A stretch of DNA of 34,380 nt from a virus. The first letter of the stretch is position 1. Each line of letters begins with the position of its first letter. Where the stretch lies: IMG/VR virus record IMGVR_UViG_3300036768_000484, positions 1 through 34,380 of that record. One strand, given 5' to 3'. The notes beneath the pieces were generated by a model that was given only the letters and a program-made list of their open reading frames with translations, ran no database searches and was not told the DNA's origin. Both the position numbers and the translations under genes were made by a program. Shown one piece after another: positions 1,924 to 34,380 of this stretch.

Positions 1924-4073
1924 GACCTGTTAGTTTCTATTACGTGCTTGTACAGGCTGGTGAACGTGCCGTTGGAATCGGTGCGCGTCGATTCAATCTC
2001 TATTCTGATACGTGGGTCGCTGCTAGCGCCGTCAGCAGCGATTTGCGCAAGCGTCCAGGTCTGGCTTGTCCCGGTCAGTCCGCTGAAGGTCCGGCGCAGC
2101 GTCGTGAGCGACGGGCCGCCATAGATTCTGATCGTGGTCGTCTGTCCGCTCTCCGGCGTGATGTCGCCGTCTGTCTGCTTGACGACGTAGGCGGTCTGAT
2201 TGACGCGGTTGCGGTTGGCCCAGGTGATGGTGATGTCGCCAGACACGGCAGCCGGGTATGCCGTCCCGTTGATCTTAATGTTTCCAGGTGGATAGGGCCG
2301 GATGAAGCGCTGCTGGATGCTGCGCGACAGCGTGCTGGCGGAAGATATGTCAAGCTCGCCCATGCCGGTCTTGGGGAGCAGTCGGATCTGCGCCGTCTCG
2401 CCGGCGACGTACTCGTGTTCTATATAGTGCGGCTCGACGAAATACACCCGCGCGCCTGCATAATGCGCCGCCGGCACGGTGTCCAGCACCCCGCGGGCAA
2501 AGGTCATGGTCGAGCCTGAAATGGCGGTGACCATGAGCCATTCTTCGTCTACGATGGCGAAATCGCCTACATCCACCTTGTCTAGGTCGATAGGAGAGCT
2601 AAGTCCTATTGAGATGTCGGCAGCGCCTTGAGGCATGTACGTGGCCAGCACCGCCGTGGGCGCGAAAGCGCCGCGATCGGCGTCCTCCCAGCCTGATCCA
2701 TCCCAGCGCATGGCGTGGTAGTCGATTGCGTCCGCGCTCGGACGCGCACCCAGGACGGCGACGATGCCCTCGGTTTGGTCGATGTCATTTAGCAGGCTTG
2801 GCCACTCGCCAACGACGTCTTTCACGATCTGCCAATACGGCACCTCATAGACCATCTGGGCGGGGCACGGCGCTGGCGGGCTGATGGGGCTCTGCCAGCC
2901 GGTTGGTGTAGGTGTGGTGTAGACTGAGGCTGGCAGACCGAAAATATCCTGCACCGCCTCGATGCGCACCTGGCCGTTTGTCAGATCGCCGTAGCTGATC
3001 CGTGCCACCCGCATGACCATCTCCACTATGCCATACGGCGGCCAGTTGAGTTTGAAGACGTCTCCGATGTCGAGACTCGATGCTTCGCGGTTTGCCACCA
3101 AGGTCGCCTTGGCCAGGGTGTTGGAAAGCTGTTTCAGCTCGCGCATAGCTACCCGGTTGGCCAGATCGCCCTTGCTGATGCCAGGATAGCGCACCGTGGT
3201 GGCCACCACCCCGCCTTGAGCCTGAATCGCGGCGATGTCTTGCACAGTGATGCTCGCGTCCTTGTCCGTCTGTCCGTCTCGGTATTGGACCGTGACCTGG
3301 TTGACGATCTCGCCCCACGATGACCGGGCGAACTCCTCGACGCGCAGGACGTTGGACGGCGAGAGCGTTGGCAAACTCGCCGCGTCGTAATCGTCCCTCG
3401 CCAGCTTGAGCGTGAACTTTCCGGTGCGTGGGTGGACATACAGCACGCCGTCGATGTGGCGCAGGATAGAAAGTATGAAGTCCTCGATCGGCTGCTCCTG
3501 ATCCCAGAGGATCGACAATCCGAAGCCTTCGGAATAGAGCGTGTCAGCCGCCGCCGTGAAGCTGGCGTCATCGATGTCCGCATCCGGATACCCCATGCCC
3601 CAGGTGGGGTCTGTCAGGCATTCGCGGATGATGTGCGCCGGATTGGCGTCCCCGCTGATCTCTGCTTTGGCTGGATACCAGGCCTTTGGGATACGCTTGA
3701 CGCGAAAGCGCCACGGCTTAATGTAGGGGTTCATGGCGGAGACAAGCCCATTCCAGACGACTGACAGAACACCACGGAAGGCCGGGATGTTCGTCCCTAA
3801 CTTGCTTTGCAGGTAGGCATTCGCCGTCTGGGTAGCGCCACCGAACATCACGTCCAGCGTGCCGTCCACGCCACCCTCGCGCTCCTCGCCGCCGAATAGG
3901 TCGCGACGGCTGATTGTGACACTGCTGTTACCGGTGATGCTGCCGGTCCAGGCCGTTCTCTCGCCGACGATGACCTCTTTCACCTCATCGACCGGCCCAT
4001 GGCACAGCGCCATGTGCATGCCCAGCCCGTACCAGTAGCCGACGGTGTATTTCTTTTTTCTGCCGCCGCTCAT
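1920..4073 (-). CDS. Tail tip / central fibre protein (J-like, host specificity)
   Basis: A 717-residue protein at the distal end of the tail gene cluster. The N-terminal part (YTVGYWYGLGMHMALCHGP) and middle region resemble the phage tail-hub proteins that occupy the place of lambda gpJ, and residues beyond about 600 look like a fibronectin-type beta domain (TITWANRNRVNQTAYVV). It would form the tail tip that contacts the host and opens a path for DNA. Position after the BR0599-family gene and two small tail genes is typical for this tail type. The start ATG overlaps the preceding stop as ATGA (4073-4070). Much shorter than lambda gpJ, so the receptor-binding load is probably shared with the fibre cassette at 10165-13303. 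Confidence 0.75.
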   Translation of the reverse strand: MSGGRKKKYTVGYWYGLGMHMALCHGPVDEVKEVIVGERTAWTGSITGNSSVTISRRDLFGGEEREGGVDGTLDVMFGGATQTANAYLQSKLGTNIPAFRGVLSVVWNGLVSAMNPYIKPWRFRVKRIPKAWYPAKAEISGDANPAHIIRECLTDPTWGMGYPDADIDDASFTAAADTLYSEGFGLSILWDQEQPIEDFILSILRHIDGVLYVHPRTGKFTLKLARDDYDAASLPTLSPSNVLRVEEFARSSWGEIVNQVTVQYRDGQTDKDASITVQDIAAIQAQGGVVATTVRYPGISKGDLANRVAMRELKQLSNTLAKATLVANREASSLDIGDVFKLNWPPYGIVEMVMRVARISYGDLTNGQVRIEAVQDIFGLPASVYTTPTPTGWQSPISPPAPCPAQMVYEVPYWQIVKDVVGEWPSLLNDIDQTEGIVAVLGARPSADAIDYHAMRWDGSGWEDADRGAFAPTAVLATYMPQGAADISIGLSSPIDLDKVDVGDFAIVDEEWLMVTAISGSTMTFARGVLDTVPAAHYAGARVYFVEPHYIEHEYVAGETAQIRLLPKTGMGELDISSASTLSRSIQQRFIRPYPPGNIKINGTAYPAAVSGDITITWANRNRVNQTAYVVKQTDGDITPESGQTTTIRIYGGPSLTTLRRTFSGLTGTSQTWTLAQIAADGASSDPRIRIEIESTRTDSNGTFTSLYKHVIETNRS

Positions 4074-9655: not shown

Positions 9656-10165
9656 TCTCTCTCAGCCACCGCTCCCAATCCTTTTTCTCTGCCTGCGCTA
9701 CTCGCGCGGCCACCGCCATATCCAAAAGACGCTGACGGCGCATCGTCTGCGCCGCCGTGAGAAAATCCCGCGCGTCCGTCCAGGCCATGTCCATCACGTC
9801 CCGGTAGGCGAATCCGGCATCGACGAGGGCGGCGATCCACTCGTGCCACCAGAGGCGGTTTGTGCGAGACGGTCTGCTGCGCCTTGGAGCACCGGCAGCA
9901 CCCGCTGGACGAAAAAACCTGCATTTACCTCCAGCACCTTAGCTGCCAGTTCCGCCAGCACGTCCGGCGTCTGATCCTCTAGCCAGGCGCGATCAACACC
10001 TGCGCCGATGGCCGTAGCCTCGATCACGGCATCGGTATGGCGAATCAAGGCGCCTGAAATGTCGCCGACGGCCAGTTCCGCAGCGATGGGTTCGATGACC
10101 TTGAGAAAGCGCGGCAGGTCGCGCACCTTGATTGGGGTGATGTTTTGCATGCTTACTTTGTTCAT
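9642..10165 (-). CDS. Tail assembly chaperone fusion (gpG-T type) made by -1 frameshift
   Basis: Ribosomes that slip by -1 at T_TTT_TTC (9917-9911) leave the 123-residue frame after residue 85 and read a further 89 residues to TAA at 9644-9642, giving a 174-residue protein. I translated the extension by hand: it starts with a Pro/Arg-rich linker and then gives protein-like sequence (LWWHEWIAALVDAGF, then WTDARDFLTAAQTMRR). This is the known arrangement of lambda G and GT chaperones, where the long form bridges tail tube and tape measure. The extension has no start codon near its beginning, so frameshifting explains it better than a separate gene. Coordinates span both frames. Confidence 0.8.
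9794..10165 (-). CDS. Tail assembly chaperone, short form (gpG-like)
   Basis: A 123-residue, helical, mildly acidic protein that precedes the tape measure, as the lambda G-type chaperone does. It would coat the tape measure during tail assembly and is not expected in the virion. The core PIKVRDLPRFLKVIEPIAAEL is typical of the small chaperones of Mu-head siphoviruses. Unslipped translation ends with a low-complexity tail (SGSPPSSMPDSPTGT). The ATG overlaps the stop of the C-type-lectin gene by one base (TAATG). A later ATG at codon 6 is also possible. Confidence 0.75.
   Translation of the reverse strand: MNKVSMQNITPIKVRDLPRFLKVIEPIAAELAVGDISGALIRHTDAVIEATAIGAGVDRAWLEDQTPDVLAELAAKVLEVNAGFFVQRVLPVLQGAADRLAQTASGGTSGSPPSSMPDSPTGT
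9911..9917 (-). promoter_or_regulatory. Programmed -1 frameshift site T_TTT_TTC
   Basis: On the minus strand bases 9917-9911 read TTTTTTC, and position 9917 is the third base of a glycine codon in the chaperone frame. The heptamer is therefore in the exact X_XXY_YYZ register needed for -1 slippage. The -1 frame downstream is open for 89 codons, and its product is protein-like. Confidence 0.8.
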
Positions 10166-11277
10166 TACACTTTTGCTGGGCGAGCGCCAGAAGATGTAAA
10201 CGAAATAGTAGCATTGTATAGCATGTCTATCGCTGCAAATCCTCCGTTCGAAAAACTAAGTACCCAATTGCCACCGCGCATCGGATAACGTTTGCCGTGG
10301 TTACGTATGTAGATACTGCCATTTAGAACCAAGCTACCAGGCGCGAGACATAAGGCACGCATGATAGAAGGGATGGTGATGCCGGTATCTGCTGTAAGCG
10401 AATTAAACACCGTTGAAACAAGATCATAGCTATTCGTATCATTGCCAGCAGGTCCCGTTCTACAATCAACTACGTCATCGACTTGGAAATTGCCAAGATT
10501 GTTGACAATGCCATTGTCGCTGTAAGTAACGAGTGAGTCATATTTGGCCGTGCCTGCCGTCCCAGGCGCAACCAGCGCGCCATCTGAGAGGCTAATGGCT
10601 TTCCACGTGGCGCTATCGTCGAAAGCGCTGGCGGTAGCAGCGTTGTTGTTTTCTAACACTTGTATTTCGCCGTCGACCAGGCGCAATCCAGGTGTGAACT
10701 CCCAGATATTTCCGACCAAATCGGAAATACCAGCAGGACTGCCGTCATGTCTCCAGGTGAGCGGACCAGTACCAGTGAGCGTGCGCCCTGTGCCGGACGT
10801 ACTGCCGGGCGCGCCACCATCGACACGACGAGCTGTTTCCCAGGCAGCATCATGTGCGCAGCCCCAATTGGTGTTTCCACGTGGCTGCGTACCGGACTTG
10901 GCGGTGAGCAAAGCTACGGCAGCCCATTCGGCGTTGGTCATGACGTGAAAGCCAGCACCGCATGCTCTTGCGGCGGTGACGAAATAGGTGTAGGGCTGAT
11001 AGACGGTTGGATCGACGCCAGGCAGCGAGAGCAGCTCGCCGTTTTTCACGATGCCGGGATACATACCGATCCAGATGCCATCTTTTACGACACCATCGAC
11101 GATGAAAGCCGGATGCACACCGGTGCCGTAGTCGTTTCCGAGGTCTTGAAGGTTGAACTTTGGAACCCAGCGGAAATAGCTCGGCTGACCGGACTGGGTG
11201 TAGTGAACAGTACATAAACCACCAGTAGCTGCTTCAATGGCAGCTCGGAGTTCGTCGCGGACAAAAATAGTCGGCAT
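10165..11277 (-). CDS. C-type-lectin / formylglycine-generating-enzyme-fold receptor-binding protein
   Basis: A 370-residue protein with the SUMF1/FGE-type C-type-lectin fold: GFHVMTNAEWAAVAL, then NTNWG, then GISDLVGNIWEF. The last 40 residues (RGGNW, GGFAAIDML, SSGARPAKV) have the layout of the variable region of diversity-generating retroelement targets, where surface residues contact the receptor. I take it as a tail-tip adhesin rather than an enzyme, because phage versions of this fold usually bind ligands. It lies in the fibre cassette between tail tube and chaperone. I saw no reverse transcriptase or template repeat anywhere in the window. Its stop overlaps the chaperone start (TAATG). 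Confidence 0.78.
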   Translation of the reverse strand: MPTIFVRDELRAAIEAATGGLCTVHYTQSGQPSYFRWVPKFNLQDLGNDYGTGVHPAFIVDGVVKDGIWIGMYPGIVKNGELLSLPGVDPTVYQPYTYFVTAARACGAGFHVMTNAEWAAVALLTAKSGTQPRGNTNWGCAHDAAWETARRVDGGAPGSTSGTGRTLTGTGPLTWRHDGSPAGISDLVGNIWEFTPGLRLVDGEIQVLENNNAATASAFDDSATWKAISLSDGALVAPGTAGTAKYDSLVTYSDNGIVNNLGNFQVDDVVDCRTGPAGNDTNSYDLVSTVFNSLTADTGITIPSIMRALCLAPGSLVLNGSIYIRNHGKRYPMRGGNWVLSFSNGGFAAIDMLYNATISFTSSGARPAKV

Positions 11278-11629: not shown

Positions 11630-12514
11630 TTAGTCGGTAAGACGTTCGATAAGGTAGCGTACTAGTACGTTGTCGGCAGCGCTGGCAAGCGTAAGAGTGC
11701 AGCCGTTGGTGGCGCGGTTGGTAACCAGAATGTCGTTTGCGCGAGCAACGCCGGTTGCGGAAATTACATCGAAATTAATACGCCAATCTGTGCCTCGCAT
11801 TTGGCGAGCGAAGGCCAGTGAGACGGTCGGCGGCGAGTCAAGTAGCTTAGGAAAGCTCGCCTCGATCCTGCGCACGTCTGTGAGCGTGACATTGGTTAGA
11901 TTCGGATCGGTGGCTGCAGTGTTGTTAGCTGGGAGGGTCAGCTGGTAGATTGCGATACCGTTGTCCGGCACGGCCTGGCCAATGGCAGTCACAGCTAGCC
12001 GGTAAGTCTGGCCGTCGGTGTATGGATAGAGATAGGCGCTGACAACAGCGGCCGTAGTTGTTGAAGTGTTATCAGGGACGCTAGCAGCGTCGTTGCTTCC
12101 GACGACAGGATAGGTCGTTCCGTTGGCAAAGCACACGCCAGCAGCAAGGTTAAGACTGCGCGGAGTGGTTGTGGATTTCGTGACCGTACAGCCACTGACA
12201 ACTCCACGGTTTTTGATGGTGATCTCGCCTCGCTGTTGCCAAGGGCCGAAGCGCAGGGCATTAATTGCCTCATGCGCCATGTGTGCTAGCGAAAGCGCTT
12301 GCATCACAGCGGTGTTACCCATGTCTAGGGTTGTAGCGTCGATTATTGATTGGACATCGTCGCTATTGATAATGCGTCGTGCAACCGAGCCTGACGCGTC
12401 TGTCACGTACATCTCTACGTAGTTCGGCCTTGCAGCCGGAGCGACGAGATAGATGGCGTGGCTGTCGAGTATGCTAGGAAGAGAAGTGGTTTTGTGAACT
12501 TTGAAGGCAGACAT
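11630..12514 (-). CDS. Tail fibre protein 2 (paralogue of the upstream fibre gene)
   Basis: A 294-residue fibre-like protein. Residues 1-60 closely match the N-terminus of the neighbouring 188-residue protein (HKTTSLPSILDSHAIYLVAP against HKTTSLPGTLEGHSVYLVAP, then NYVEMYVT and RRIINSDD), so the two arose by duplication. The remainder is Thr/Asn-rich beta sequence typical of trimeric fibre shafts and differs completely from the paralogue. The shared N-terminus is presumably the virion attachment domain and the different C-termini the receptor-facing parts. The start at 12514 lies 4 bases after the paralogue's stop. Confidence 0.75.
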   Translation of the reverse strand: MSAFKVHKTTSLPSILDSHAIYLVAPAARPNYVEMYVTDASGSVARRIINSDDVQSIIDATTLDMGNTAVMQALSLAHMAHEAINALRFGPWQQRGEITIKNRGVVSGCTVTKSTTTPRSLNLAAGVCFANGTTYPVVGSNDAASVPDNTSTTTAAVVSAYLYPYTDGQTYRLAVTAIGQAVPDNGIAIYQLTLPANNTAATDPNLTNVTLTDVRRIEASFPKLLDSPPTVSLAFARQMRGTDWRINFDVISATGVARANDILVTNRATNGCTLTLASAADNVLVRYLIERLTD

Positions 12515-12517
12515 AAG

Positions 12518-13084
12518 TTACCAGCCCGCCGTCTCCAATCGTGCACGCGGATAGTTGCCGTTATAGGTGAAGTCACCATTTGAGTCCTCACCAACCTTGC
12601 CAAGCTGCGTCATGTTGGCGTGAGTATGGCTATTTGCTACCGCCGAATCGATAGCTGACGGAGACGAAGTCGGCTTGCCCTGGATCATCGCCCAAGTAAT
12701 GGTTAAGTCCATCGACTCATACTCAGTCAGCTTGATCCACTGGCTGGTAGCCGCGCGCCAGACATAGGACGCCGCACCGCTGTTGACGGTCGGGTCGCCA
12801 GTTGCATCAAGCACCAGCACATATTTCCCGTTTGTAGGTGTCAGAGCATTACGTGCAGCGATGTCAGCAACGATCTCAATCTTAGCTGTCGAAGCGGCTA
12901 TGGACGCATCGATCATCGCTTGGATGTCATCGCTGTTGATAATGCGCCGCGCAGCCGAGCCATCGGCATTGGTGACGTACATTTCGACGTAGTTCGGCTT
13001 CGCCGAGGGCGCGACAAGGTAAACGCTATGTCCTTCCAGCGTGCCGGGGAGGGAAGTGGTTTTGTGGATTTTGATAACTGCCAT
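12518..13084 (-). CDS. Tail fibre protein 1 (short paralogue)
   Basis: A 188-residue protein sharing its first 60 or so residues with the following gene. The middle (KIEIVADIAARNALTPTNGKYV and YVWRAATSQWIKL) resembles the beta domains in many phage fibre proteins, and the end (SHTHANMTQLGKV) has the His-Thr-His pattern common in fibre C-termini. It would be a short side fibre or an adaptor for the longer fibre. A Shine-Dalgarno (AAGGAG) precedes the ATG. It stands just after the collagen-like gene. Confidence 0.72.
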   Translation of the reverse strand: MAVIKIHKTTSLPGTLEGHSVYLVAPSAKPNYVEMYVTNADGSAARRIINSDDIQAMIDASIAASTAKIEIVADIAARNALTPTNGKYVLVLDATGDPTVNSGAASYVWRAATSQWIKLTEYESMDLTITWAMIQGKPTSSPSAIDSAVANSHTHANMTQLGKVGEDSNGDFTYNGNYPRARLETAGW

Positions 13085-21673: not shown

Positions 21674-22939
21674 TCAGTAGCTTGCCCACTTGTCTACCGT
21701 AGCATCCTCAGGCGCTTGGTCATACCGGCCAGACCATTTGCGCGCGCCGACTGGCTCGTAGGCGTATCCTACAACAGCAGATGACATACCAGCAAACGCG
21801 TAGGCCAGCGCATCGACGCCGTCATCATGCTCGCCTTCCGGGAACGCAAGCAGCTCGTCACGGAACCAGGCTGGCACTCCTGCCGGATCGTGGCGGATCA
21901 TGCGCTGCTCGTAGCGCGTGAGTACCGGAAGAAAGCGCGTCAGCTTGTCTTTGTCGGGACGTATGCCGCGCACCGGAAGTGGTGTGGTGCGCGTCAGCTC
22001 CTGCACCACGGCGGCTTGGTACTGAGTCTGCTCGATGGCGATCAGGATAGGGTTATGCCTCGCAGCAGCGGCCTTGATCCGCTGTAGCACGTCGTGAAAA
22101 CCGCACCGATGCCTCTCTGCCTCCTTGACGTAGAGGATACCGGTATCCTGGTCGCGCGCCAGTGCCACGATGGCGGTGTAGTCCGCACCATCTCGCTCGC
22201 TGATGGCAAGGTCGACGCCGAGCACGACTGGAAATCCGGGCGGGCAAGGCGCGTCTACCAGCATTTCCGTCTTCACCAGCCCACCGCCGAAGGTCACGAA
22301 CTCGGCCAAATACTCTTGCCGGAACACCAGATCGGGAAGCTCTCGGCGCTTCCGTTCGATCTCCGCCTGGTCGATATGCGGATTGACGCTAGTCGGCATG
22401 CGGAAGCTCTTCCAGTCCGGATATTCCGGGTCGCCATCACGGCGGAAAAGCTCGTAGAAGTAGTTTAGCCCTTTCGGCGTGCTGATGAACCACGCCTCGC
22501 CTCTGTAGTCCGTCAGCGTCGGGCTGATCGCCTGCTCCCAGGCGTCTTTCAGGTATCGAGCATGCGCGGCCTCGTCTATCACTAGGCGGGCATACTTGCG
22601 ACCACGTCCGGCGTCCTTGTCCTCAAGCGTCCAGAAGTCAATCACGCCGCCGGTGATGAGTTCGATGCGCATTTCCGTCCGGTTGGCTTTGCGCGCAACC
22701 GGCCTTAGCGTGCGCTCCATGTCCTCCCAAACGTCGAGCAGCAGCTTGTAGGTCGGCGAGAAGAAGGCGACTGGCTTGCCGTCAATCGCGCCTCCGTCCA
22801 TCAGCGCCAGCCACTCGATGGCGAGCAGCGTCTTGCCGAAACGCCGTCCGGCGCTGATGACCTTGTAGCGCGCCTTGCTCTCAAGGATGCGGAGCTGGCC
22901 GGGGTGCAGGTCGATTGGTGGGATGCGGATGCGGGTCAT
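21674..22939 (-). CDS. Terminase large subunit
   Basis: A 421-residue packaging motor. The ATPase has Walker A SAGRRFGKT (29-37), Walker B LVIDEA (119-124) and the coupling motif STPKG (153-157). The RNase H-like nuclease has D243 in GVDLAISERDGAD, E303 in IAIEQTQ, and the closing HDDGVDALAYA (371-381). All key acidic residues are present. The protein is related to Mu gp28-type and terminase_6 families. Its ATG overlaps the stop of the methyltransferase gene (22939-22936). Confidence 0.95.
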   Translation of the reverse strand: MTRIRIPPIDLHPGQLRILESKARYKVISAGRRFGKTLLAIEWLALMDGGAIDGKPVAFFSPTYKLLLDVWEDMERTLRPVARKANRTEMRIELITGGVIDFWTLEDKDAGRGRKYARLVIDEAAHARYLKDAWEQAISPTLTDYRGEAWFISTPKGLNYFYELFRRDGDPEYPDWKSFRMPTSVNPHIDQAEIERKRRELPDLVFRQEYLAEFVTFGGGLVKTEMLVDAPCPPGFPVVLGVDLAISERDGADYTAIVALARDQDTGILYVKEAERHRCGFHDVLQRIKAAAARHNPILIAIEQTQYQAAVVQELTRTTPLPVRGIRPDKDKLTRFLPVLTRYEQRMIRHDPAGVPAWFRDELLAFPEGEHDDGVDALAYAFAGMSSAVVGYAYEPVGARKWSGRYDQAPEDATVDKWASY

Positions 22940-24210
22940 TCTGCAGGGAACGGTTCTCCAGTTGCCTCAAGGATCGCTCGCTTGCCGGTGAATTGCTGCC
23001 AGCGGCGGACGGCAACATCGACGTATTGCGGCGACAGTTCCATCGCATAGCAGCGGCGGCCTGTTTGTTCGGCGGCGATGATTTGTGAACCGCTTCCAGA
23101 GAACGGCTCGTATATTATCTCGCCTGGCTTGGTGTGGTTATATATCGGCGGCAGCCATAGTGCTACCGGCTTTTGCGTTGGGTGCTCTGTGCCTTTGTCT
23201 CTCCCAATCTCCCACACGCTTGATTGATTCTTGTCCCCATACCACGGCGGCGGGTTGCCTTTGCGCCAGCCGTAAAAACACGGCTCGTGCCGCCAGTGAT
23301 ACATGCCGGATCGCGTCAAAACGAAAGAAGGCTTAACCCATATGATTTGCCGATGCAGCAGCACATCAGCAGCAGCAGCAGCAGCAGCGAAAAAGCCTTG
23401 CGTCAAATACGCGTGCCATAGATACCACGCCGCGTTTTCAACAAGCGCGATGCTTGCCGCATGTTTGAATGCCGCCTCTAAGAACTCCTGCAACTTCTCA
23501 TCCTGCAGGTCGTCGTTCTTTATGTGCTCCCACCTGCTTTCCATGTCCGAGAAGCCAGAATCTGGAATCCCGTTTTTTGTGGCGACGTGCGAAACACCAT
23601 ACGGCGGGTCTGTTTGCATCAGCACAGCCTTCTGTCCAGCCATCAGATTCTCTACATGTTCGGCAACCGTGCTGTCCCCGCACATCAAGCGATGGTCGCC
23701 AAGTAGCCAGATGTCTCCAGGCTTTGTTATTGCCTCTGGCTTTGTCTCTGGCACATCGTCTGGATCGGTCAGGCCATCAGTGACTTGATCGGAATCAACA
23801 TCGATCAGCGCAGAAAGTTCGTCAAAGTCGAAGCCGGTAAGCTCTAGATCAAAGCCAACATCGGAAAGCTCTTTAAGCTCAACCGCCAGCAGTTCATCAT
23901 CCCACCCAGCATTCAACGCCAGCTTGTTATCGGCGATGATGTAGGCGCGCCGCTGCGTTTCGGTCAGGTGTTCCATGCGAATGCAGGGAACCTCTTGCAT
24001 CCCAAGCTTGCGCGCCGCCAGCACGCGGCCATGTCCGGCTATGATGTTGCCGTTGCCGTCGATCAGCACCGGATTCGTGAAGCCAAACTCGCGGATGCTG
24101 GCCGCGATCTGCGCCACCTGCGCGTCCGAGTGCGTGCGCGGGTTGCGTGAGTAAGGGATCAGCTTATCGATTGGCCAGTGCTCTATCTTGTCTGCGACCC
24201 ACGAAGTCAT
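22936..24210 (-). CDS. ParB-like domain fused to DNA methyltransferase (first of two)
   Basis: A 424-residue protein. Residues 10-110 are a ParB/sulfiredoxin-like domain (IPYSRNPRTHSDAQV and GNIIAGHGRVLAA). Residues 165-410 are a DNA amino-methyltransferase with the catalytic DPPYG (201-205) before the SAM-binding EPFSGSG (368-374), the beta-class order that modifies adenine N6 or cytosine N4. An alanine run (around residue 277) is encoded by a CAG/CTG tract. No partner nuclease is adjacent; the gene sits between small and large terminase genes, so modification may protect DNA from restriction or mark it for packaging. Both junctions are ATGA overlaps. Confidence 0.9.
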   Translation of the reverse strand: MTSWVADKIEHWPIDKLIPYSRNPRTHSDAQVAQIAASIREFGFTNPVLIDGNGNIIAGHGRVLAARKLGMQEVPCIRMEHLTETQRRAYIIADNKLALNAGWDDELLAVELKELSDVGFDLELTGFDFDELSALIDVDSDQVTDGLTDPDDVPETKPEAITKPGDIWLLGDHRLMCGDSTVAEHVENLMAGQKAVLMQTDPPYGVSHVATKNGIPDSGFSDMESRWEHIKNDDLQDEKLQEFLEAAFKHAASIALVENAAWYLWHAYLTQGFFAAAAAAADVLLHRQIIWVKPSFVLTRSGMYHWRHEPCFYGWRKGNPPPWYGDKNQSSVWEIGRDKGTEHPTQKPVALWLPPIYNHTKPGEIIYEPFSGSGSQIIAAEQTGRRCYAMELSPQYVDVAVRRWQQFTGKRAILEATGEPFPAE

Positions 24211-25149: not shown

Positions 25150-25508
25150 GGTTGATAAAGCTTGAATTGCAACAGTTTTATTAAATCCTCCCTGGTCGCA
25201 GGTTTTTTGTTGATCCACATCCTCCCGTCGTCAGGATTTGTGTTCTCAAACTGCACCAGGTAGATGCCTCTATACTTCGGATCATGTTTTGCGGCCTTGT
25301 GAACCGTTCTGAAAACCTCCCTCTGCCACCCCGGGCAATCATTGCCATTCCTCTTCTCCTCTATGATCATCCATTCGCCTGTCTTGTAGTTCATCCAGAT
25401 ATAGTCGATGTTCGTGGCGATATATCCAAGCTTGCTGTCGATTTCCTCCTGATCACGAAGCCACAAACCAAATTGCGTGGAATGGCTATCCCTTCTTCTC
25501 GCAGTCAT
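25146..25508 (-). CDS. PD-(D/E)XK-like nuclease
   Basis: A 120-residue protein. The central core NIDYIWMNYKTGEWMIIEEKR has an Asp (D35) followed 15 residues later by E-x-K (E50 to K52), the layout of PD-(D/E)XK nucleases. The fold class is inferred from this motif. It overlaps the end of the 388-residue ParB-methyltransferase by 23 bases and is coupled to rusA by ATGA. It could be a resolvase-type enzyme or the cutting partner of the methyltransferase; nothing here decides. No Shine-Dalgarno is visible. Confidence 0.6.
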   Translation of the reverse strand: MTARRRDSHSTQFGLWLRDQEEIDSKLGYIATNIDYIWMNYKTGEWMIIEEKRNGNDCPGWQREVFRTVHKAAKHDPKYRGIYLVQFENTNPDDGRMWINKKPATREDLIKLLQFKLYQP

Positions 25509-26652
25509 TTAGAACCGCCATTGCTATTTTTGCTATCTTTTCGTCAATCTCCACGCCGTCGAATAAGCATCCGTGCCTCAACGCTGCCACACCAGTCGCA
25601 GCCGCTCCGCAAAACGGATCGAGTATGTATTGCCCGGGCTGGCAAATCTTCGAAATGATGTCGTACATGCCGCCAACTGATTGCCCCCAGTCGTGAAACC
25701 GCTTGTCACGCTCGCTGCTGGTGAAAACATCGCCAAAGATTTTTCCGTTATATTTGCAGCCTCGCTTAGTGAACATCAGGAGAGGCTTCCACGTGGTGTT
25801 GACTTGCACCTGCCGCAGCGGTGTCGGCTGCCCGGGCGTCAAGTAGCACGCCGTCCAGTAGTAGTCCAGGTGCTTCGTCATCATCGCCATGATCTCGTCG
25901 AGATAGCTCTGCCCACTCATGGCGATCAGCAAGCCGTCATCCTTGAGCCACTCGCTTGCTCGCTCAGCCAAGGCCTCCCACAAAGGCAGGTATTCGCGAG
26001 GATAAGGCGGATCGGTTATGATAAAATCGTACTGTCGAGGAGCTTTCCAAGTCCTCATATCGGCGTGCCAGATTCTCCAGCGATCGGATGGCTTGACCTT
26101 CTCTGCATCTCTCGCCATCTCCTCGCGCTGCTTCTCCCTCCTCATCTGGCGCGCCTTCTTCTCTGCCTCGTGAGCGGTCATCTCGCCTCGCTCTATCTTG
26201 CTTATCAGTTCAGGCGCTTCGCGCTCTACGGCTTTGACTGTAGCCACCAGGCGCGGGGAGACGTTAAGAAGTTCGGCGGCGTCTTCTTGGCTAATCTTTG
26301 GTGTCTGCAAATTTGCAGACACCACTTGCTGATACTGATTTCCGTGAAAGTCTCCAAGCTTCATATTCGCCAACCTCGCCGCAATCACAGCACGCTGGCT
26401 CTCATTCAGGTGCCGGCGGTTAAGGTTAAGAGAGATGACAAAACCAACAGGATCATCGCCGGTATACTCACGGTAACGCGGCTCAATCCCGGTAGCTAAG
26501 CAAGCGCGATAACGGTTCCTGCCGTCTAAGATTTTTCCCTCGTAAGTCCAGATTGGCTCGATCAAGCCGTTGGCGGATATGTCTTTGCATAGGTTCTCAA
26601 ACTCTTTTCCTTCCAGCAACGGGAAGGCTTCTGCAAAGTGGTGGAACTCCAT
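25486..26652 (-). CDS. ParB-like / helix-turn-helix protein fused to DNA methyltransferase (second)
   Basis: A 388-residue protein. Residues 15-70 are ParB-like (GKILDGRNRYRACLATGI), residues 118-145 a helix-turn-helix (SQEDAAELLNVSPRLVATV), and 160-190 a charged linker. The methyltransferase follows, with DPPYP (214-218) before the SAM motif DPFCGAAATG (345-354). It is clearly different from the 424-residue enzyme: the linker has a DNA-binding helix pair and the catalytic segments do not align closely. A GGAGGG site precedes the ATG. It sits among replication and recombination genes, so it may methylate DNA early. Confidence 0.87.
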   Translation of the reverse strand: MEFHHFAEAFPLLEGKEFENLCKDISANGLIEPIWTYEGKILDGRNRYRACLATGIEPRYREYTGDDPVGFVISLNLNRRHLNESQRAVIAARLANMKLGDFHGNQYQQVVSANLQTPKISQEDAAELLNVSPRLVATVKAVEREAPELISKIERGEMTAHEAEKKARQMRREKQREEMARDAEKVKPSDRWRIWHADMRTWKAPRQYDFIITDPPYPREYLPLWEALAERASEWLKDDGLLIAMSGQSYLDEIMAMMTKHLDYYWTACYLTPGQPTPLRQVQVNTTWKPLLMFTKRGCKYNGKIFGDVFTSSERDKRFHDWGQSVGGMYDIISKICQPGQYILDPFCGAAATGVAALRHGCLFDGVEIDEKIAKIAMAVLNDCEKKG

Positions 26653-26663
26653 AAACCCTCCGT

Positions 26664-27302
26664 TCAGTTAGCTCTTCTAGTTAGCACCGATTTGATCTCT
26701 TCAATATACTTGCGCACCTCCTCCCGCGTCGCTATCCCCTTCCCGGGCGCTGGAATCGCTTTTAGCCGCTTCGGCACCTCGGCCGGAAGCCTTCCGGTGC
26801 GTACTCCTTCTATCGCCTCGTCCAGCGCTGCCTTCCAGCGACCCTCTAGCGACTGGTACGAATAGGCAAAAAGGTCTGATCCTAGCTTCGCAGCAGCCCA
26901 ATAGATCGCCGGGGAACTCCATTTGTCTTCTCCGGCCTCGCGTTTGCGCATTTGCTCGACCGCTTCGAAAAATGCGCGCTCGTAGTCGATAGGAGGACGG
27001 CAGGCCTTCAGGAACTCGGCGAAAGATGGCGGCCAGTCGAACATCCTTCGGCACGCTGCAAGTCCGCGCTTGATCTCTTCCAACGTGACACCTTCCTCGG
27101 CGAATCCTTCAGCCCATGCGACGCGCCAGTTATCGATCGCCTGCTGGTTTGGAAAAGCCGAGCGCCAGCGGTGCGGATATAGACCGTCGAGGCGGTTGAA
27201 AAGGTGATCAATCAGCGCGACGCCGTCTAACTTTGGGTGCGGTTCAAGCCATGCGCTTAGGTGCGATAGGCGTGATGTCGATGATGTCGTGGTCATAGTC
27301 AT
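26664..27302 (-). CDS. Replication protein P-like helicase loader
   Basis: A 212-residue protein with the lambda P-family core FPNQQAIDNWRVAWAEGF, then ACRRMFDWPPSFAEFLKACR. Proteins of this family bring the host DnaB helicase to the phage origin. It directly follows the O-like initiator, overlapping it by 59 bases, as O and P are adjacent in lambdoid phages. AGGAGG stands 4 bases before the ATG at 27302; a second ATG at 27296 has more usual spacing. No helicase gene is present, consistent with use of the host enzyme. Confidence 0.82.
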   Translation of the reverse strand: MTMTTTSSTSRLSHLSAWLEPHPKLDGVALIDHLFNRLDGLYPHRWRSAFPNQQAIDNWRVAWAEGFAEEGVTLEEIKRGLAACRRMFDWPPSFAEFLKACRPPIDYERAFFEAVEQMRKREAGEDKWSSPAIYWAAAKLGSDLFAYSYQSLEGRWKAALDEAIEGVRTGRLPAEVPKRLKAIPAPGKGIATREEVRKYIEEIKSVLTRRAN

Positions 27303-28077
27303 GATTCCTCCTTTGCGTGCTAATGCGGTTTCTGTTGACGTATGCGACCGGATCGAACTTCTCTGCTTTACTCGACCTGCTGTTCAGATACCACTCCGCC
27401 TTGAAGCCTTGCCAGCCTGAGAGACAGCAGTGCTCTATAGCTTCCTGCAAGCTAATGCCTGCTTTACTCGCCTCTCTTCGCATTGTGTCTAGGACTGTCT
27501 GCGTGACTGGCCCTGCCCGCTTTGCTTTGCGGACTTCGAGCCAGTCCGAGAAGGTTTGTTGTGAGACATCAGGAGGACAAGGAAGACTTTTCTGTTTTGA
27601 AGAGCGCGCGCTTTGCGTGCGCGTATTCTTATTAATATCAGTACTTGTTTGATACTCAGTACTTACTATATATTCAGTACTTGTTAGTGTCGGATTTGCC
27701 GCATCCGGTTCAGCCGTATGCGGTTCTGCCGTATGCGGTTCTGCCGCATACGGTTCGGCTGTATGCTGTTCTGGCGTTTCAGACACTATGTAGTTGACGC
27801 TGGAGACCCTTCCATCCTTGCCTCTGACCTGCTCTCTACGCACATATCCGGCCTTGATTAGCTCGTCGATAAGTGCGTAAGTTGCATCCCTGCCGGTCGG
27901 CTTTCCACTGTTTGCCACCTCGTTGACCAAGGCAGCTACCGACACTTTCCAGTTGTCTGGTTTGCCTAGAAGGTATATGAGCAGCCCGCGCGCTGCCCAT
28001 GAGAGACGCTTATCCTCGCTGATGCGCTTGTCGAGGATGTAAAAATTGCTATCAGGTCTAGGCGCTCTGATGATCAT
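27244..28077 (-). CDS. O-like replication initiator with N-terminal winged helix
   Basis: A 277-residue protein. Residues 1-95 form a winged-helix domain (LSWAARGLLIYLLGKPDNWKV and DATYALIDELIKAGYVRRE) found in phage replication initiators and some plasmid proteins. Residues about 103-150 are a repetitive linker, and the C-terminal helical part (DWLEVRKAKRAGPVTQTVL) resembles domains in O-like proteins. The start at 28077 has GGAGGAGG just upstream and overlaps the DUF1376 stop as ATGA. Followed by the P-like loader. The origin could lie in the repetitive segment at 27638-27772, as lambda's lies in O. Confidence 0.75.
   Translation of the reverse strand: MIIRAPRPDSNFYILDKRISEDKRLSWAARGLLIYLLGKPDNWKVSVAALVNEVANSGKPTGRDATYALIDELIKAGYVRREQVRGKDGRVSSVNYIVSETPEQHTAEPYAAEPHTAEPHTAEPDAANPTLTSTEYIVSTEYQTSTDINKNTRTQSARSSKQKSLPCPPDVSQQTFSDWLEVRKAKRAGPVTQTVLDTMRREASKAGISLQEAIEHCCLSGWQGFKAEWYLNSRSSKAEKFDPVAYVNRNRISTQRRNHDYDHDIIDITPIAPKRMA
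27638..27691. repeat. Three 18-bp repeats inside the initiator gene
   Basis: The sequence TCAGTACTT occurs at 27638, 27656 and 27674, exactly 18 bases apart, with AT-rich DNA between. In the coded protein this gives TSTEY, VSTEY and TSTDI. The AT-rich, iterated layout could be an origin component or only a variable linker. Confidence 0.8.
27698..27772. repeat. Five 15-bp tandem repeats inside the initiator gene
   Basis: Five consecutive 15-bp units of the form GCCGTATGCGGTTCT fill this stretch; units two and three are identical and the others differ at a few bases. They encode five-residue units such as HTAEP and YAAEP. They lie 6 bases from the AT-rich 18-bp repeats, similar in outline to an iteron cluster next to an AT-rich region. 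Confidence 0.9.
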
Positions 28078-29052: not shown

Positions 29053-29081
29053 TTGACATGCTGAAAAGAATGCATTATATT
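29053..29081 (+). promoter_or_regulatory. Rightward early promoter (strong sigma70 type)
   Basis: A perfect TTGACA (29053-29058), exactly 17 bases, then TATATT (29076-29081), preceded by a nine-A tract at 29042-29050 that could act as an UP element. It should drive the recombination operon. An 8-bp palindrome AAGCGCTT lies at about 29023-29030 between the two promoters and is a candidate operator. Confidence 0.85.
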
Positions 29082-29511: not shown

Positions 29512-30498
29512 ATGAACACCGAACACGAAAAATGGCTCGAAGAACGCCGTAACGGAATCGGCGGCTCCGACATTGCCGCCATTCTCGGCTTGACGCCGAA
29601 GTGGAGAACGGCCCTCGACGTGTGGCTGGACAAGACCGGCCAAACGACCGAAGAAATCGGCAACGCCGAAGCCGCATACTGGGGAACATTGTTAGAGGGG
29701 GAGATTGCGCGCGAGTACGGACGGCGCACAGGCCGCACCGTGCAGCGCGTCAATCGAATCCTTCGCCATCCGGCCCACTCGTGGGTCATCGGGAATATCG
29801 ACCGCGCCGTGGTGCGCAATGGATCGCGCGTGCGCGTGGCTGCCGATGGCGGCACGCTCTTAGGCGCTGATGGTCTGCTGGAGGTCAAAACCACCAGCGC
29901 TTACAAGGCAGGCGAATGGGGCCGCGACGGCGAGGAGGACGCGGTGCCGATTCCATACCAAGCCCAGGTCATGTGGTACCTGGGCATAACTGGAATGCCG
30001 TGGTGCGATGTTGCCGCTTTGATCGGCGGCCAGCGGATGGTTATCCGGAGAATCCACCGCGACGACGAGACCATCGCCGTGATGCTGGAGCGCGCTCACG
30101 AGTTCTGGCACAAGTACGTTCTGACTAGACAGCCGCCGGAGCCGACAACGGCAAAGGACGTCGAGCGGCTATTCCCGTCCGACAACGGCGAGGCGCTTGA
30201 GGCTGACGAGGAACTACTGGCGGCCTACAACGCCGCGCGAGAAGCAAAGGCCAGAATGGAGCAAGCAGAGACGGACTACGAGGCTGCCGTGGAGCGTATC
30301 AAGATTGCCATGGGAGAGCGATCAGTTGTCACGCTCAACGGCCAGACGCTGGTGACTTGGAAGGCCAGTCAGCCTTACAAGCGCACAGACTGGAAGGCAC
30401 TTGTTTATCACCACTGGCCGGTGCCTCCACGCGATCTTGTCGAACAATTCACAACCGAAGTTCCAGGAACCCGCCGGTTCCTTTTGAAGGAGGTCTAA
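29512..30498 (+). CDS. YqaJ-like 5'-3' exonuclease (recombination)
   Basis: A 328-residue lambda-exonuclease-type protein. Residues 17-26 are GGSDIAAILG, the family signature. Catalytic residues fit at D97 (GNIDR), E124 and K126 (LEVKT), and Q150/Q152 in PYQAQVMWYLG. It would resect DNA ends to give 3' single strands for RecT. Residues 210-290 form a helical region (AAREAKARMEQAETDYEAAVERI cut short here at AVERI). AGGAGG precedes the ATG. It lies two genes before recT. Confidence 0.9.
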   Translation: MNTEHEKWLEERRNGIGGSDIAAILGLTPKWRTALDVWLDKTGQTTEEIGNAEAAYWGTLLEGEIAREYGRRTGRTVQRVNRILRHPAHSWVIGNIDRAVVRNGSRVRVAADGGTLLGADGLLEVKTTSAYKAGEWGRDGEEDAVPIPYQAQVMWYLGITGMPWCDVAALIGGQRMVIRRIHRDDETIAVMLERAHEFWHKYVLTRQPPEPTTAKDVERLFPSDNGEALEADEELLAAYNAAREAKARMEQAETDYEAAVERIKIAMGERSVVTLNGQTLVTWKASQPYKRTDWKALVYHHWPVPPRDLVEQFTTEVPGTRRFLLKEV

Positions 30499-30499
30499 G

Positions 30500-30856
30500 A
30501 TGGAAATCAAACTTAAAGAAGAGATTATTTCATCAGCGCTTGAGGGCGCTTTCGGTCGCGCAATAGACAACTTGATGTACAGCCGAGAAGTGCATGCTGC
30601 CATTGTCGAAGCTGTGTCCGGCAGCATTGCATCACATGCCATCGGGCAAGCTGTGGAAAATGCTGTCAAGAGCATCGACAAGGCCTCAATAACACAGGCA
30701 ATCGCGCTCGAAATGCAGCGATGCATCGTGGTCGGCGTTTCCAAAGTTGTCGAGGACGCTGTGGTCGAGATCATAGCCAAGATGCGAGGCGCATATACGG
30801 CAGACGAAAAACAGCGCATCCGCGCAGAACTGCAAGCAAAAGGAGGGATGAAATGA
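30500..30856 (+). CDS. Helical protein between exonuclease and RecT genes, unknown
   Basis: A 118-residue, almost entirely helical protein (VHAAIVEAVSGSIASHAIG, KASITQAIALEMQ), without membrane segments. GGAGG stands before the ATG, which lies 1 base after the exonuclease stop; its own stop overlaps the recT ATG (ATGA at 30853-30856). Tight packing between a nuclease and an annealing protein suggests a recombination accessory. I do not recognise the family. Confidence 0.7.
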   Translation: MEIKLKEEIISSALEGAFGRAIDNLMYSREVHAAIVEAVSGSIASHAIGQAVENAVKSIDKASITQAIALEMQRCIVVGVSKVVEDAVVEIIAKMRGAYTADEKQRIRAELQAKGGMK

Positions 30857-31704
30857 CATCAGCACTGAAAGAAGCAGTAACCGGAAAATATCCAGCAAAC
30901 CGCAAACCGGCAGGCGGCGACATCGCCGCCTTGCTGACCGATCAGAGGATAAAGGCGCAGATGGCTTTAGCTTTACCAAAACACGTTACCGCAGACCGTC
31001 TTGCGCGCGTGGCGCTCACCGAAGTGCGCAAGAACCCGGCTCTGGCGAAATGCGACCAGACAAGCTTCCTAGGAGCGCTCATGACCTGCGCCAGTCTCGG
31101 CCTAGAGCCAGGCGGGCCGCTTGGGCATGCGTACCTTGTGCCTTTTGAGAACCGCAAGAAGGGGATTATGGAAGTCCAGTTCATCATCGGTTACCGAGGC
31201 ATGATCGAGCTGGCGCGCCGCAGTGGCCAGATCATGAGCATCGAAGCGCGCGCCGTCTACGAGGGCGACACCTTCGAGGTGGTGTTTGGCCTTGAAAGCA
31301 ACCTGCGCCACATCCCCGACTTCGACAATCCGAACCGCGTACAGCCGGACAAGCTGCGGTTCGTCTACGCCGTCGCCAAGCTCCGTGACGGAGGCGTCCA
31401 GTTCGACGTGATGAGCCGCCGCGAGATAGAGGCCGTGCGCGCGCAGTCACGCGCTGGCACGAGTGGGCCTTGGGTAACACATTACGAGGCGATGGCGTTA
31501 AAGACTGTGATGCGCCGCTTATTCAAGTGGCTGCCGATTAGCATCGAGCTCGCCGCGGCTATCGAAGCAGACGAGCGCGCCGATCTTGGGTTGCCTCAAG
31601 ACAATCCGCTGCTTGAGGCGGAGGTAGAGACTGCGCAGCCTCAGCAGGAAGCGCAAGAGACGGAGCAGAGCGCTGACGGCGAGGCAGAGGAGGTCAAGCA
31701 ATGA
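30853..31704 (+). CDS. recT: RecT-family single-strand annealing protein
   Basis: A 283-residue RecT. Typical stretches are FLGALMTCASLGLEPGGPLG, HAYLVPFENRKKG, QFIIGYRGMIELARRSG and WVTHYEAMALKTVMRRLFKW. It anneals the single strands produced by the YqaJ exonuclease, making concatemers and allowing repair. The frame is open further upstream but the ATG at 30853 is supported by AGGAGG and the overlap with the previous stop. The last 40 residues are acidic and probably disordered. Confidence 0.93.
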   Translation: MTSALKEAVTGKYPANRKPAGGDIAALLTDQRIKAQMALALPKHVTADRLARVALTEVRKNPALAKCDQTSFLGALMTCASLGLEPGGPLGHAYLVPFENRKKGIMEVQFIIGYRGMIELARRSGQIMSIEARAVYEGDTFEVVFGLESNLRHIPDFDNPNRVQPDKLRFVYAVAKLRDGGVQFDVMSRREIEAVRAQSRAGTSGPWVTHYEAMALKTVMRRLFKWLPISIELAAAIEADERADLGLPQDNPLLEAEVETAQPQQEAQETEQSADGEAEEVKQ

Positions 31705-32252
31705 TCATCGGTCTTTGCGGCCCCGCTGGGTCTGGGAAGGATACAGTGCGCTCTATCCTTGAGCGCAAGCACGGATTCGTCGGGCTGGCGTTTGCCGATC
31801 CGATCCATGAGATGCTGAAAGCTCTGCTTGCGACGATCGACATGCGCACCTACGGCAATTACCGCTCCCTCAAGGAGCGGCCGGTGCCGCTCATAGGCGC
31901 AAGCTACAGGGAAATGGCGCAGACGCTCGGCACGGAGTGGGGCAGGAAACAAATTGGAGAAAATTTTTGGGTAGCGATTGCCATGCACCGGGTGCGCATG
32001 ATGAAGGCGTATGGCAATCGCCGGATCGTGATCAGCGACGTGCGCTTCCCTAACGAAATGAGAGCGATCCGCGAGGTCGGTGGCAGGATATGGGCCATCA
32101 CGCGGACCGGGGTCGAGCCGGTGAACGATCACGTCTCGGAGGCCATGGCACGCGACGCCGTGCACTTTGCGGACAGGATCATCAGCAACGACGGCACGAT
32201 TGAAGACCTTGAGCGCGCGGTAAGTGAAACACTAAACAACATAAACAACTAA
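31701..32252 (+). CDS. Deoxynucleoside monophosphate kinase-like P-loop protein
   Basis: A 183-residue protein with a perfect P-loop GPAGSGKDT at residues 7-15, then FADPIHEMLKALLA and a later SDVRFPNEMRAIRE stretch, as in phage dNMP kinases related to T4 gene 1. It would convert dNMPs to dNDPs to feed phage DNA synthesis. The ATG overlaps the recT stop (31701-31704). The final helix is Asn-rich and weakly conserved in appearance. Confidence 0.85.
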   Translation: MIIGLCGPAGSGKDTVRSILERKHGFVGLAFADPIHEMLKALLATIDMRTYGNYRSLKERPVPLIGASYREMAQTLGTEWGRKQIGENFWVAIAMHRVRMMKAYGNRRIVISDVRFPNEMRAIREVGGRIWAITRTGVEPVNDHVSEAMARDAVHFADRIISNDGTIEDLERAVSETLNNINN

Positions 32253-32538: not shown

Positions 32539-32581
32539 CCTGCCGCCGCGGACGATTCCCCGACGGCGGCGGGGCTTTTTT
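32539..32581 (+). terminator. Rho-independent terminator within the early operon
   Basis: A 10-bp GC stem (32539-32548 with 32564-32573, one G-U pair) is followed closely by six T (32576-32581). It separates the exonuclease/recT/kinase genes from the distal genes that include dnaN. Genes downstream continue in the same direction, so readthrough or regulation is implied unless another promoter exists. Confidence 0.8.
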
Positions 32582-32608: not shown

Positions 32609-33049
32609 ATGGAAAATGCAACCGTCAAAGATGATTACCAGGGGATCAAAATCCACGGACTAGGAAAGGAGCAGCTGGACGCTGAGACAGCCAGAAAAGT
32701 GGTAGAAGCCTGGCGCATCAAGTGCCAGATCGACGATCTGAAAGAAAAGCTCGAAGCTCTCCAGTCCGAGCTCATAGCGCAGCACGGATCAGGTGTTGCG
32801 CTTGTGGTCCCCGGGGCATGTAGGGCGATTCTCTTATCGCGTCAGTCAGCCACAATCACCGATCCGAAACGCCTGGAGCAGGTGCTAGGAGCAGCAAAGT
32901 ACTTGTGTCTAGTGCGCGAGAAAGTGACCTACCACGCAGAAGATAGGCTGGTTGAAATGGCTCAAAATCCATCCGAGCCGTTGGCCAAGGCCATATCTGA
33001 GTGCATTTCCATCAGCCAAAGCAATGTAGTCACCTGGCTGGCGCAATAA
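32609..33049 (+). CDS. Coiled-coil protein of unknown function
   Basis: A 146-residue protein. Residues 30-60 form a coiled coil (VEAWRIKCQIDDLKEKLEAL), then a beta part (VALVVPGACRAILLSRQSA) and a helical end. AAAGGAG lies before the ATG at 32609; the frame is open further upstream but that would read through the terminator. The coiled coil followed by a beta core recalls small phage nuclease-inhibitor or recombination-mediator proteins, but I cannot assign it. It is the first gene after the terminator. Confidence 0.7.
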   Translation: MENATVKDDYQGIKIHGLGKEQLDAETARKVVEAWRIKCQIDDLKEKLEALQSELIAQHGSGVALVVPGACRAILLSRQSATITDPKRLEQVLGAAKYLCLVREKVTYHAEDRLVEMAQNPSEPLAKAISECISISQSNVVTWLAQ

Positions 33050-33118: not shown

Positions 33119-33334
33119 ATGGACATAAATAGACTGATTGCAAGAACAAGACAAGGATTGACCACCGAGCAGGATGCGCAAGAAATCCTTTCCATGCTCA
33201 AGCAACTAGAGCGATACGAGCGAGCACTGCGCCAGATTGCCGCTTACGGAGGAAGCTGGTCTTCCAAAATCGCCGCGTGCGCCCTTGAATGGCGTGCTTT
33301 GGTGGAGGACTACGGCGATGAAATAGGCATATGA
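33119..33334 (+). CDS. Small hypothetical protein upstream of dnaN
   Basis: A 71-residue helical protein (INRLIARTRQGLTTEQDAQE, MLKQLERYERALRQIAAYG) with a strong GAGGAGGG site before the ATG. It follows the 47-bp element and ends 17 bases before dnaN, so the two probably share a transcript. The YERALRQIA stretch is common in small phage early proteins of unknown role. No domain recognised. Confidence 0.7.
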   Translation: MDINRLIARTRQGLTTEQDAQEILSMLKQLERYERALRQIAAYGGSWSSKIAACALEWRALVEDYGDEIGI

Positions 33335-33351
33335 TATCTCAGGAGATAGCC

Positions 33352-34380
33352 ATGAGGTTCCAAACCCCCCGCGAACCATTACTTGAGGCGTTGCAAAAAG
33401 TCGCCGGCGTCATAGACCACCGCTCTACCATGCCGATCCTGGCCAACGTTCTCCTCCGTCTCAAAGATGGCCGTTTGACCTTGATCGGCACCGATCTAGA
33501 AATCGAGCTCATCACGCATCTCCCCATTCAAGCTGCGGGCGAGCCGGGAGAGACGACGGTTTCCGCTAAGAAACTCCTCGACATCGTACGTCTTTTGCCT
33601 CCCCAAACCCAGCTTGGGTTTAGCCTCAAGGACGGTAAAACCTTAGAAATCCAAGCGGCAAGCGCAAGCTTCAGGCTTGCCACCTTGCCCGCCGACACTT
33701 TTCCCGAATTTACCCTGCACGGCAGCGCCATGACGGCTTATGTACGCGATGAGCGGCTTAAGAAGCTTTTGGCTAAAACCTTCTATGCCATCGCCAAGAA
33801 AGACGTACGCTACTACTTGACCGGCCTGCTTTTGGAACTGGACGGAAGCGCTATCCGCGCCGTTGCCTCTGACGGCCACCGCCTAGCTTGGTGCGAGGCG
33901 GCTTTGGAGAGCGAAGTCGAGGGCCGCTACCAACCCCTCCTGCCGCGCAAAGTCGTCCAGGAATTAATGCGCCTGCTCAAAGGCGAGCAAACCGCCATCT
34001 GTCTGCGGCTGGCAGAAAACAGCATTCGCCTGGAACTTGAGGAGGAGATTTTCTCCGCCAAACTGCTCGATGCCCGTTACCCGGATTATCGGCGGGTTTT
34101 TCCAAAAGAATTCAGCCGCCGGCTGACCTGCAACCGCCAAGCGTTGAAAGAAGCCATCAGCCGAATTTCCGTCCTCGCAGACGAACATAACCGCATCATC
34201 CTAGACGTCTCCGAGGGGACTTTACGCCTTTCCGCCCATAATCCTGAGCAAGAAGAAGCTGAAGAGCGGCTTGCGGTCAGCTATGTCGGCGAGCCGTTTA
34301 CGGTCGGCTTTAACGCCGCTTATCTCGCCGATGCAGTCTCTCACCTAGACTCTGAAACCATTCAGCTCTCTTTTGCCGAG
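33352..34380 (+). CDS. dnaN: DNA polymerase III beta sliding clamp (truncated by window end)
   Basis: A beta clamp open to the end of the window after 343 codons. It begins with MRFQTPREPLLEALQKVAG, then STMPILANVLLRL and IGTDLEIEL, aligning from the first residue with E. coli DnaN. AGGAG lies 8 bases before the ATG. All three clamp domains are represented, and the joined gene (33352-33604 plus 1-851) is full length at 367 residues. It follows small phage genes in the rightward operon, without dnaA upstream, so it looks like a phage-carried copy. With a phage initiator and loader but no polymerase, it would act with the host's polymerase III. A host chromosomal copy joined by misassembly is the alternative. 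Confidence 0.93.
   Translation, partial: MRFQTPREPLLEALQKVAGVIDHRSTMPILANVLLRLKDGRLTLIGTDLEIELITHLPIQAAGEPGETTVSAKKLLDIVRLLPPQTQLGFSLKDGKTLEIQAASASFRLATLPADTFPEFTLHGSAMTAYVRDERLKKLLAKTFYAIAKKDVRYYLTGLLLELDGSAIRAVASDGHRLAWCEAALESEVEGRYQPLLPRKVVQELMRLLKGEQTAICLRLAENSIRLELEEEIFSAKLLDARYPDYRRVFPKEFSRRLTCNRQALKEAISRISVLADEHNRIILDVSEGTLRLSAHNPEQEEAEERLAVSYVGEPFTVGFNAAYLADAVSHLDSETIQLSFAE
33605..34380 (+). repeat. Right copy of near-perfect terminal direct repeat
   Basis: Counterpart of bases 1-776. The last 52 bases carry four differences, at 34329, 34335, 34377 and 34380, all in third codon positions of dnaN. This clustering suggests a switch to a related allele near the end rather than random sequencing error. 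Confidence 0.95.

Follow-up and report, generated by a model that had tools for sequence, protein, structure and literature searches.

A diverged, full-length beta sliding clamp gene in a small tailed phage and its apparent capture from Methylothermaceae

What would a small tailed phage do with a complete dnaN of its own, and from where did it take the gene? The question is raised by an IMG/VR virus record of 34,380 bases (IMGVR_UViG_3300036768_000484), the whole of which was analysed and is called the window here. A sequence-only reading of the window had proposed that a gene for a bacterial-type beta sliding clamp is joined across its two ends, that phages of this kind normally borrow the clamp of the host, and that clamp, initiator and helicase loader make up a minimal set for redirecting host polymerase III. 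Here we consider the gene, its neighbours, its relatives and its residues, and we favour, with a probability of roughly 0.6, a phage-borne clamp that is loaded by the host and assists host Pol III on phage DNA.

The clamp gene and the genome around it

The gene is divided between the two ends of the window, which largely repeat one another:

33352 to 34380, plus strand: right-hand part of dnaN, beta sliding clamp; codons 1-343, truncated where the contig stops; reading frame intact, three clamp domains
1 to 851, plus strand: left-hand part of dnaN; codons 86-367 and stop; canonical C-terminus VMPMRL
33341 to 33345, plus strand: Shine-Dalgarno AGGAG of dnaN, read from the sequence
33605 to 34380, plus strand: terminal overlap with 1-776; 772 of 776 bases identical, mismatches at 34329, 34335, 34377 and 34380

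Joined, positions 33352-33604 and 1-851 read as a complete dnaN of 367 amino acids with no internal stop, as had been proposed; among the open reading frames the left-end part is listed as a partial frame at 3-851, and the right-end part as a frame running from 33352 off the end of the contig. We infer the join from the 776-base overlap. When 1-776 is set against 33605-34380, 724 bases are identical and the four mismatches follow in the final 52 bases, all at third codon positions (three silent, one D/E), a pattern that random errors would give about once in 80. Because all four fall at third positions, they are probably the trace of two real dnaN alleles that were assembled together and not of sequencing error. 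A second contig bearing the start of dnaN was searched for and none was found.

The borders of the gene agree in every detail with their first description: the ATG at 33352 follows the stop of a 71-aa reading frame (33332-33334) after a gap of 17 bases, the gene has its own Shine-Dalgarno, and its stop at 849-851 lies 10 bases from the end, at 862, of a convergent minus-strand endolysin gene. Both junctions between phage DNA and dnaN are internal to the contig and at gene boundaries, and the contig ends cut only through the middle of dnaN. Neither dnaA, gyrB nor recF, the neighbours that the sequence-only reading had named as the sign of a chromosomal copy, was seen next to the gene, which is embedded in a phage genome with phage genes on both sides. 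The rest of the record is a coherent tailed phage with a Mu-like capsid (PF10124), terminase, portal and tape measure.

The product is a full-length bacterial-type beta clamp, and its identity is beyond chance. In a profile search it matches TIGR00663 at 5.3e-90 (302 bits against a cut-off of 137.65), all three Pfam clamp domains are present above their cut-offs (PF00712, PF02767 and PF02768), beta clamps in the PDB are matched at 4.7e-86, and phrog_947 is matched at 1.3e-71. An AlphaFold model short of the last 24 residues (pLDDT 92.4) predicts the three-domain clamp fold, with a TM score of 0.96 to 2pol, the E. coli clamp, and 3pwe.

Other phage genes and signals set the context in which such a clamp would be expressed:

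33119 to 33334, plus strand: 71-aa phage gene that immediately precedes dnaN; its homologue in the related phage G039, 49% identical, stands beside a half-clamp gene
32609 to 33049, plus strand: 146-aa phage gene of the dnaN cassette (phrog_27552); related genes occur in other phages and in a prophage of Methylothermaceae
32539 to 32580, plus strand: strong intrinsic terminator, a stem followed by T6 (-28.3 kcal/mol, z -2.5)
29512 to 32252, plus strand: early recombination operon with RecE-like exonuclease, a 118-aa gene, RecT and dNMP kinase
27244 to 28077, minus strand: O-like initiator (phrog_678, 6.1e-24)
26664 to 27302, minus strand: lambda P-like helicase loader (PF06992, 6.7e-13)
862 to 1389, minus strand: endolysin, GH108 and PG_binding_3 (Glyco_hydro_108, 3e-25), convergent with dnaN

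The rightward early region ends with dnaN, next to the endolysin gene, and a strong promoter-like site at 29053-29081 lies ahead of the rightward operon. The terminator at 32539-32580 separates the dNMP kinase and the early operon from the dnaN cassette, which consists of the last three genes. Because it precedes the cassette, clamp expression is predicted to need read-through, antitermination or a promoter that we did not recognise. The terminator may itself be an antitermination site or the boundary of the cassette.

A full-length clamp, an O-like initiator and a P-like loader are all present, so the members of the proposed minimal set are there; they are, however, not one operon, since the clamp shares the plus strand with RecE/RecT and the dNMP kinase, the terminator stands ahead of it, and O and P form a divergent minus-strand operon at 26664-28077. 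Neither a polymerase nor a clamp loader was found among the phage genes examined. A scan of 43 phage proteins and DnaN itself for clamp-binding motifs, which had been suggested as a check, gave no strict match and hexamer matches at chance level only, and thus no sign of phage proteins that dock on the clamp. Since the phage has no polymerase, no clamp loader and no such motifs, the partners of its clamp must be host proteins.

Donor, host and related phages

The closest DnaN proteins are chromosomal Methylothermaceae copies at 60-68% identity, all others reaching at most about 48%. In a maximum-likelihood tree, of the kind the sequence-only reading had called for, the phage protein is nested within Methylothermaceae with support of 100/100 and is sister to the chromosomal copy L193 (95/84); its branch measures 0.42, that of L193 0.22. 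These comparisons point to capture of the gene from the chromosome of a Methylothermaceae-like gammaproteobacterium. The chromosomal proteins of this family (Methylococcales; L193, L194 and L005) have the same domains, length and cleft as the phage copy, but they keep basic residues at positions 103 and 105, Q149 and the near-invariant positions, which the phage copy does not. Their genes lie between dnaA and ftsZ, as seen in two loci (L005 and L006) with the order yidC, dnaA, dnaN and a convergent ftsZ, whereas the phage gene does not. The rare case of a phage clamp that can be traced to a donor family allows the donor and captured forms to be compared residue by residue.

Methylothermaceae, the apparent donor family, probably also include the host, because a related prophage lies in a genome of that family (G082; contig C64, about 13-26 kb, L240/L241), with matches in head (66%), portal (47%) and endolysin (61%). 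The sole dnaN match of that genome is on a different contig from the prophage. Contamination of the metagenome-assembled genome may lie behind this link.

Among related phages the gene stands alone. A full dnaN is found in 0 of 42 related phage records, and among 134 viral loci fetched the only other full dnaN is in the unrelated L004 (33%), so that only one genome was found with this dnaN. Two relatives, G035 and G004, have the same layout, with the endolysin gene (80-85% identical) converging on the RecT operon (79-82%) and other genes replacing dnaN; endolysins of relatives that lack dnaN are 80-86% identical to that of the window. In two others, G010 and G041, the slot is occupied by a tyrosine integrase.

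Some relatives carry a smaller clamp-like protein. A 188-aa half-clamp (PF02767 at 1.7e-5, phrog_3007 at 1e-21) is encoded at positions 1521-2084, minus strand, of a locus from IMGVR_UViG_3300036768_000129 (L179), within a related phage's RecE-RecT-SSB operon. Such half-clamps (phrog_3007; G039, BcepC6B gp31 and Acinetobacter phage Cato) differ from the present protein in that their 188 aa cover no more of DnaN than its central region and a part of the C-terminal one, and the copy in G039 also sits in a RecE-RecT operon, where the homologue of the 71-aa gene comes after it. The label of RusA-like resolvase borne by phrog_3007 and BcepC6B gp31 is apparently an annotation error for a clamp-like protein that lacks one domain. 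With a half-clamp in the early region of G039 too, that region may be a favoured place for clamp genes in this group of phages.

Residue changes and the role of the clamp

The captured protein has changed more than its chromosomal kin. At least 93% of 109 chromosomal clamps agree at each of 81 near-invariant positions; there the phage protein deviates 10 times, the Methylothermaceae copies 0-4 times and the worst other copy 8 times, while relative-rate counts place the excess of changes on the phage side in 20 of 20 comparisons, with a chi-square above 3.84 in 12. In the numbering of the E. coli clamp, used throughout, the partner cleft is kept (L155, G174, H175, R176, L177, P242, R246, V247, N320, Y323 and M362-L366), among them the docking residues for Pol III and delta in E. 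coli, and position 172 is S as in the chromosomal kin.

The changes that stand out lie elsewhere. One side of the dimer interface carries R103S, R105S and S107R, while F106, L108 and L273 are unchanged, as are the acidic partner residues, and position 272 has I272V; near the interface the 274-280 loop reads ADEHNR against SNEQYRG and is one residue shorter; and the DNA-contact residue Q149 is replaced (Q149K). The loop is presumably a contact site of the delta subunit of the clamp loader. In the E. coli clamp the interface is stabilised by salt bridges (PMC4041429); Q149 contacts DNA, and charged residues of the interface are not strongly conserved across bacterial clamps generally (PMC11139829). 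The comparison suggests that partner docking is preserved and the ring-closing side altered, and R103S and R105S together with the shorter loop could impair ring formation or loading. Deviant positions make up 4 of 17 at the interface against 6 of 71, a trend only (Fisher p = 0.096) between regions picked after looking, and we do not claim that they cluster there.

How might the phage use such a protein? In the reading that we prefer, a small tailed phage with Mu-type head genes, lambda-like O and P and RecE/RecT took up a host chromosomal dnaN. Its O-like and P-like proteins would initiate replication and recruit host DnaB, the host clamp loader would recognise the unchanged cleft and open and load it, and the polymerase III of the host would then use this phage clamp on phage DNA, which would relieve competition for a limited supply of host clamp. 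The conserved cleft, the intact frame and the location of the gene support this role; the interface changes and the upstream terminator are the source of the doubt that we attach to it.

The same changes admit other readings. The clamp may have been rewired apart from that of the host, through R103S, R105S, S107R, the 274-280 loop and position Q149, such that it pairs with itself, or is opened and loaded, in its own way while its docking of Pol III is kept; we regard this as unlikely, if worth setting out, and were it true phage DNA would have a separate pool of clamps.

Unlikely, too, is a clamp turned against the host, pairing with host clamp subunits in mixed dimers or competing for the loader and so slowing host replication and repair. 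Such an action would fit a cleft that is intact yet accompanied by changes on one side of the interface and in the adjoining loop, and in E. coli clamps assembled from two unlike protomers are functional (PMC3022782). However, the core of F106, L108, I272V and L273 and the acidic residues are kept, so homodimers are still likely, and bacterial clamps at large do not strongly conserve their interface charges (PMC11139829). Our search of the open literature found no experimental study of phage and host clamps mixing, a question that the pair of donor and captured proteins makes testable.

It is quite improbable that the gene serves resistance, as a spare clamp on which an inhibitor of a rival phage, of the gp168 type, or an antibiotic would not act, in the manner of GriR-type spare DnaN. 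griR, a dnaN-type self-resistance gene named in papers on griselimycin, counts in favour of this idea. The phage protein gp168 blocks the DNA channel of the clamp (PMC11139829), and the phage clamp has Q149K; but the cleft that binds drugs and peptides is unchanged, and neither an inhibitor gene nor a defence system was found nearby.

We think it similarly improbable that dnaN is a passenger, captured recently, without function and drifting. The gene is unique among relatives, has the longer branch and lies behind a terminator, as a passenger might, but its frame is intact after about a third of the residues have changed, the cleft is conserved and the two alleles differ at third positions only.

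Very improbable is a prophage flanked by two dnaN copies, with integrase-less entry through recombination between phage and host dnaN. Two alleles at the contig ends, the encoded RecE/RecT and a slot that holds an integrase in G010 and G041 would suit it, as would the window itself, in all 34,380 bases of which no tyrosine integrase was found. But the shared 724 bases carry derived residues that are absent from the chromosomal copies, so that neither end resembles a host allele, and variation between phage strains is a simpler account of the alleles; with neither a tyrosine integrase in the window nor chromosomal sequence at either of its ends, it does not read as an integrated prophage, and a Campbell-type prophage at dnaN has no direct support.

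Most improbable of all is an assembly chimera of phage and host dnaN, which a metagenomic contig with dnaN at both ends might suggest but which would need two independent joins exactly at gene edges; there is no dnaA or ftsZ remnant, both junctions are internal to the contig and the protein is distinct from each of the 109 chromosomal copies in the comparison, and we reject host contamination or chimera.

Other phage-borne clamps and further features of the window

By sequence comparison, phage-borne DnaN is already a known kind of protein, of which the present copy is another member, and the rarity that the sequence-only reading ascribed to it was overstated: Rhizobium phage 16-3, AmM-1, Thermus phage Lalka27b and Arthrobacter phages have DnaN. 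A protein search matched 138 records in phage collections, some of them bacterial contamination; clamps that lie among phage genes are those of 16-3, AmM-1, RHph_X2_25, RHph_TM3_3_14B, Rivra, Mae-JY04, RR1-A, Pyei1, RadFad and Lalka27b, and full-length DnaN is documented in phages of 40-72 kb. In the open literature our searches brought up no work on the function of a phage-borne DnaN. One apparent precedent, 'Acinetobacter phage MD-2021a' (L273, CAKLQH020000026.1), was dropped, being a bacterial chromosome contig filed as phage with the gene order yidD-rnpA-rpmH-dnaA-dnaN-recF-gyrB.

The phrog_947 clamps (Rhizobium 16-3, the RHph phages, RR1-A, Aurantimonas AmM-1, Agrobacterium Rivra, Paracoccus Pyei1 and Arthrobacter RadFad) resemble the present one in being full-length, in lying in a gene cluster of a phage, here of 44-69 kb, and in often standing beside recombination or replication genes. 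They are only 26-33% identical to it, their phages infect alphaproteobacteria or actinobacteria, and most keep R103/R105, so we reject an interface change common to all phage clamps. Lalka27b has RecT, the clamp, an O-like initiator and a DnaB-type helicase as neighbours; its clamp is 30% identical, and the phage differs in its size, 69 kb, and in encoding a DnaB-like helicase itself. What appears to set the present clamp apart is its traceable gammaproteobacterial donor together with its interface residues.

Three further features of the phage genome can be added. Two N6/N4 DNA methylase genes (22936-24210 and 25486-26652, minus strand) include one with a ParB-like N-terminal domain, and no partner nuclease was recognised. 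The putative tail-tip protein at 10165-11277, minus strand (phrog_2889), has a C-terminus that by eye looks like the lectin-type variable domain of a diversity-generating retroelement, and no reverse transcriptase for such an element was found in this record or in 14 relatives. Finally, a pair of 169-base repeats at 12336-12504 and 12906-13074, 73% identical and in adjacent tail-region genes, looks like a duplication of a gene end.
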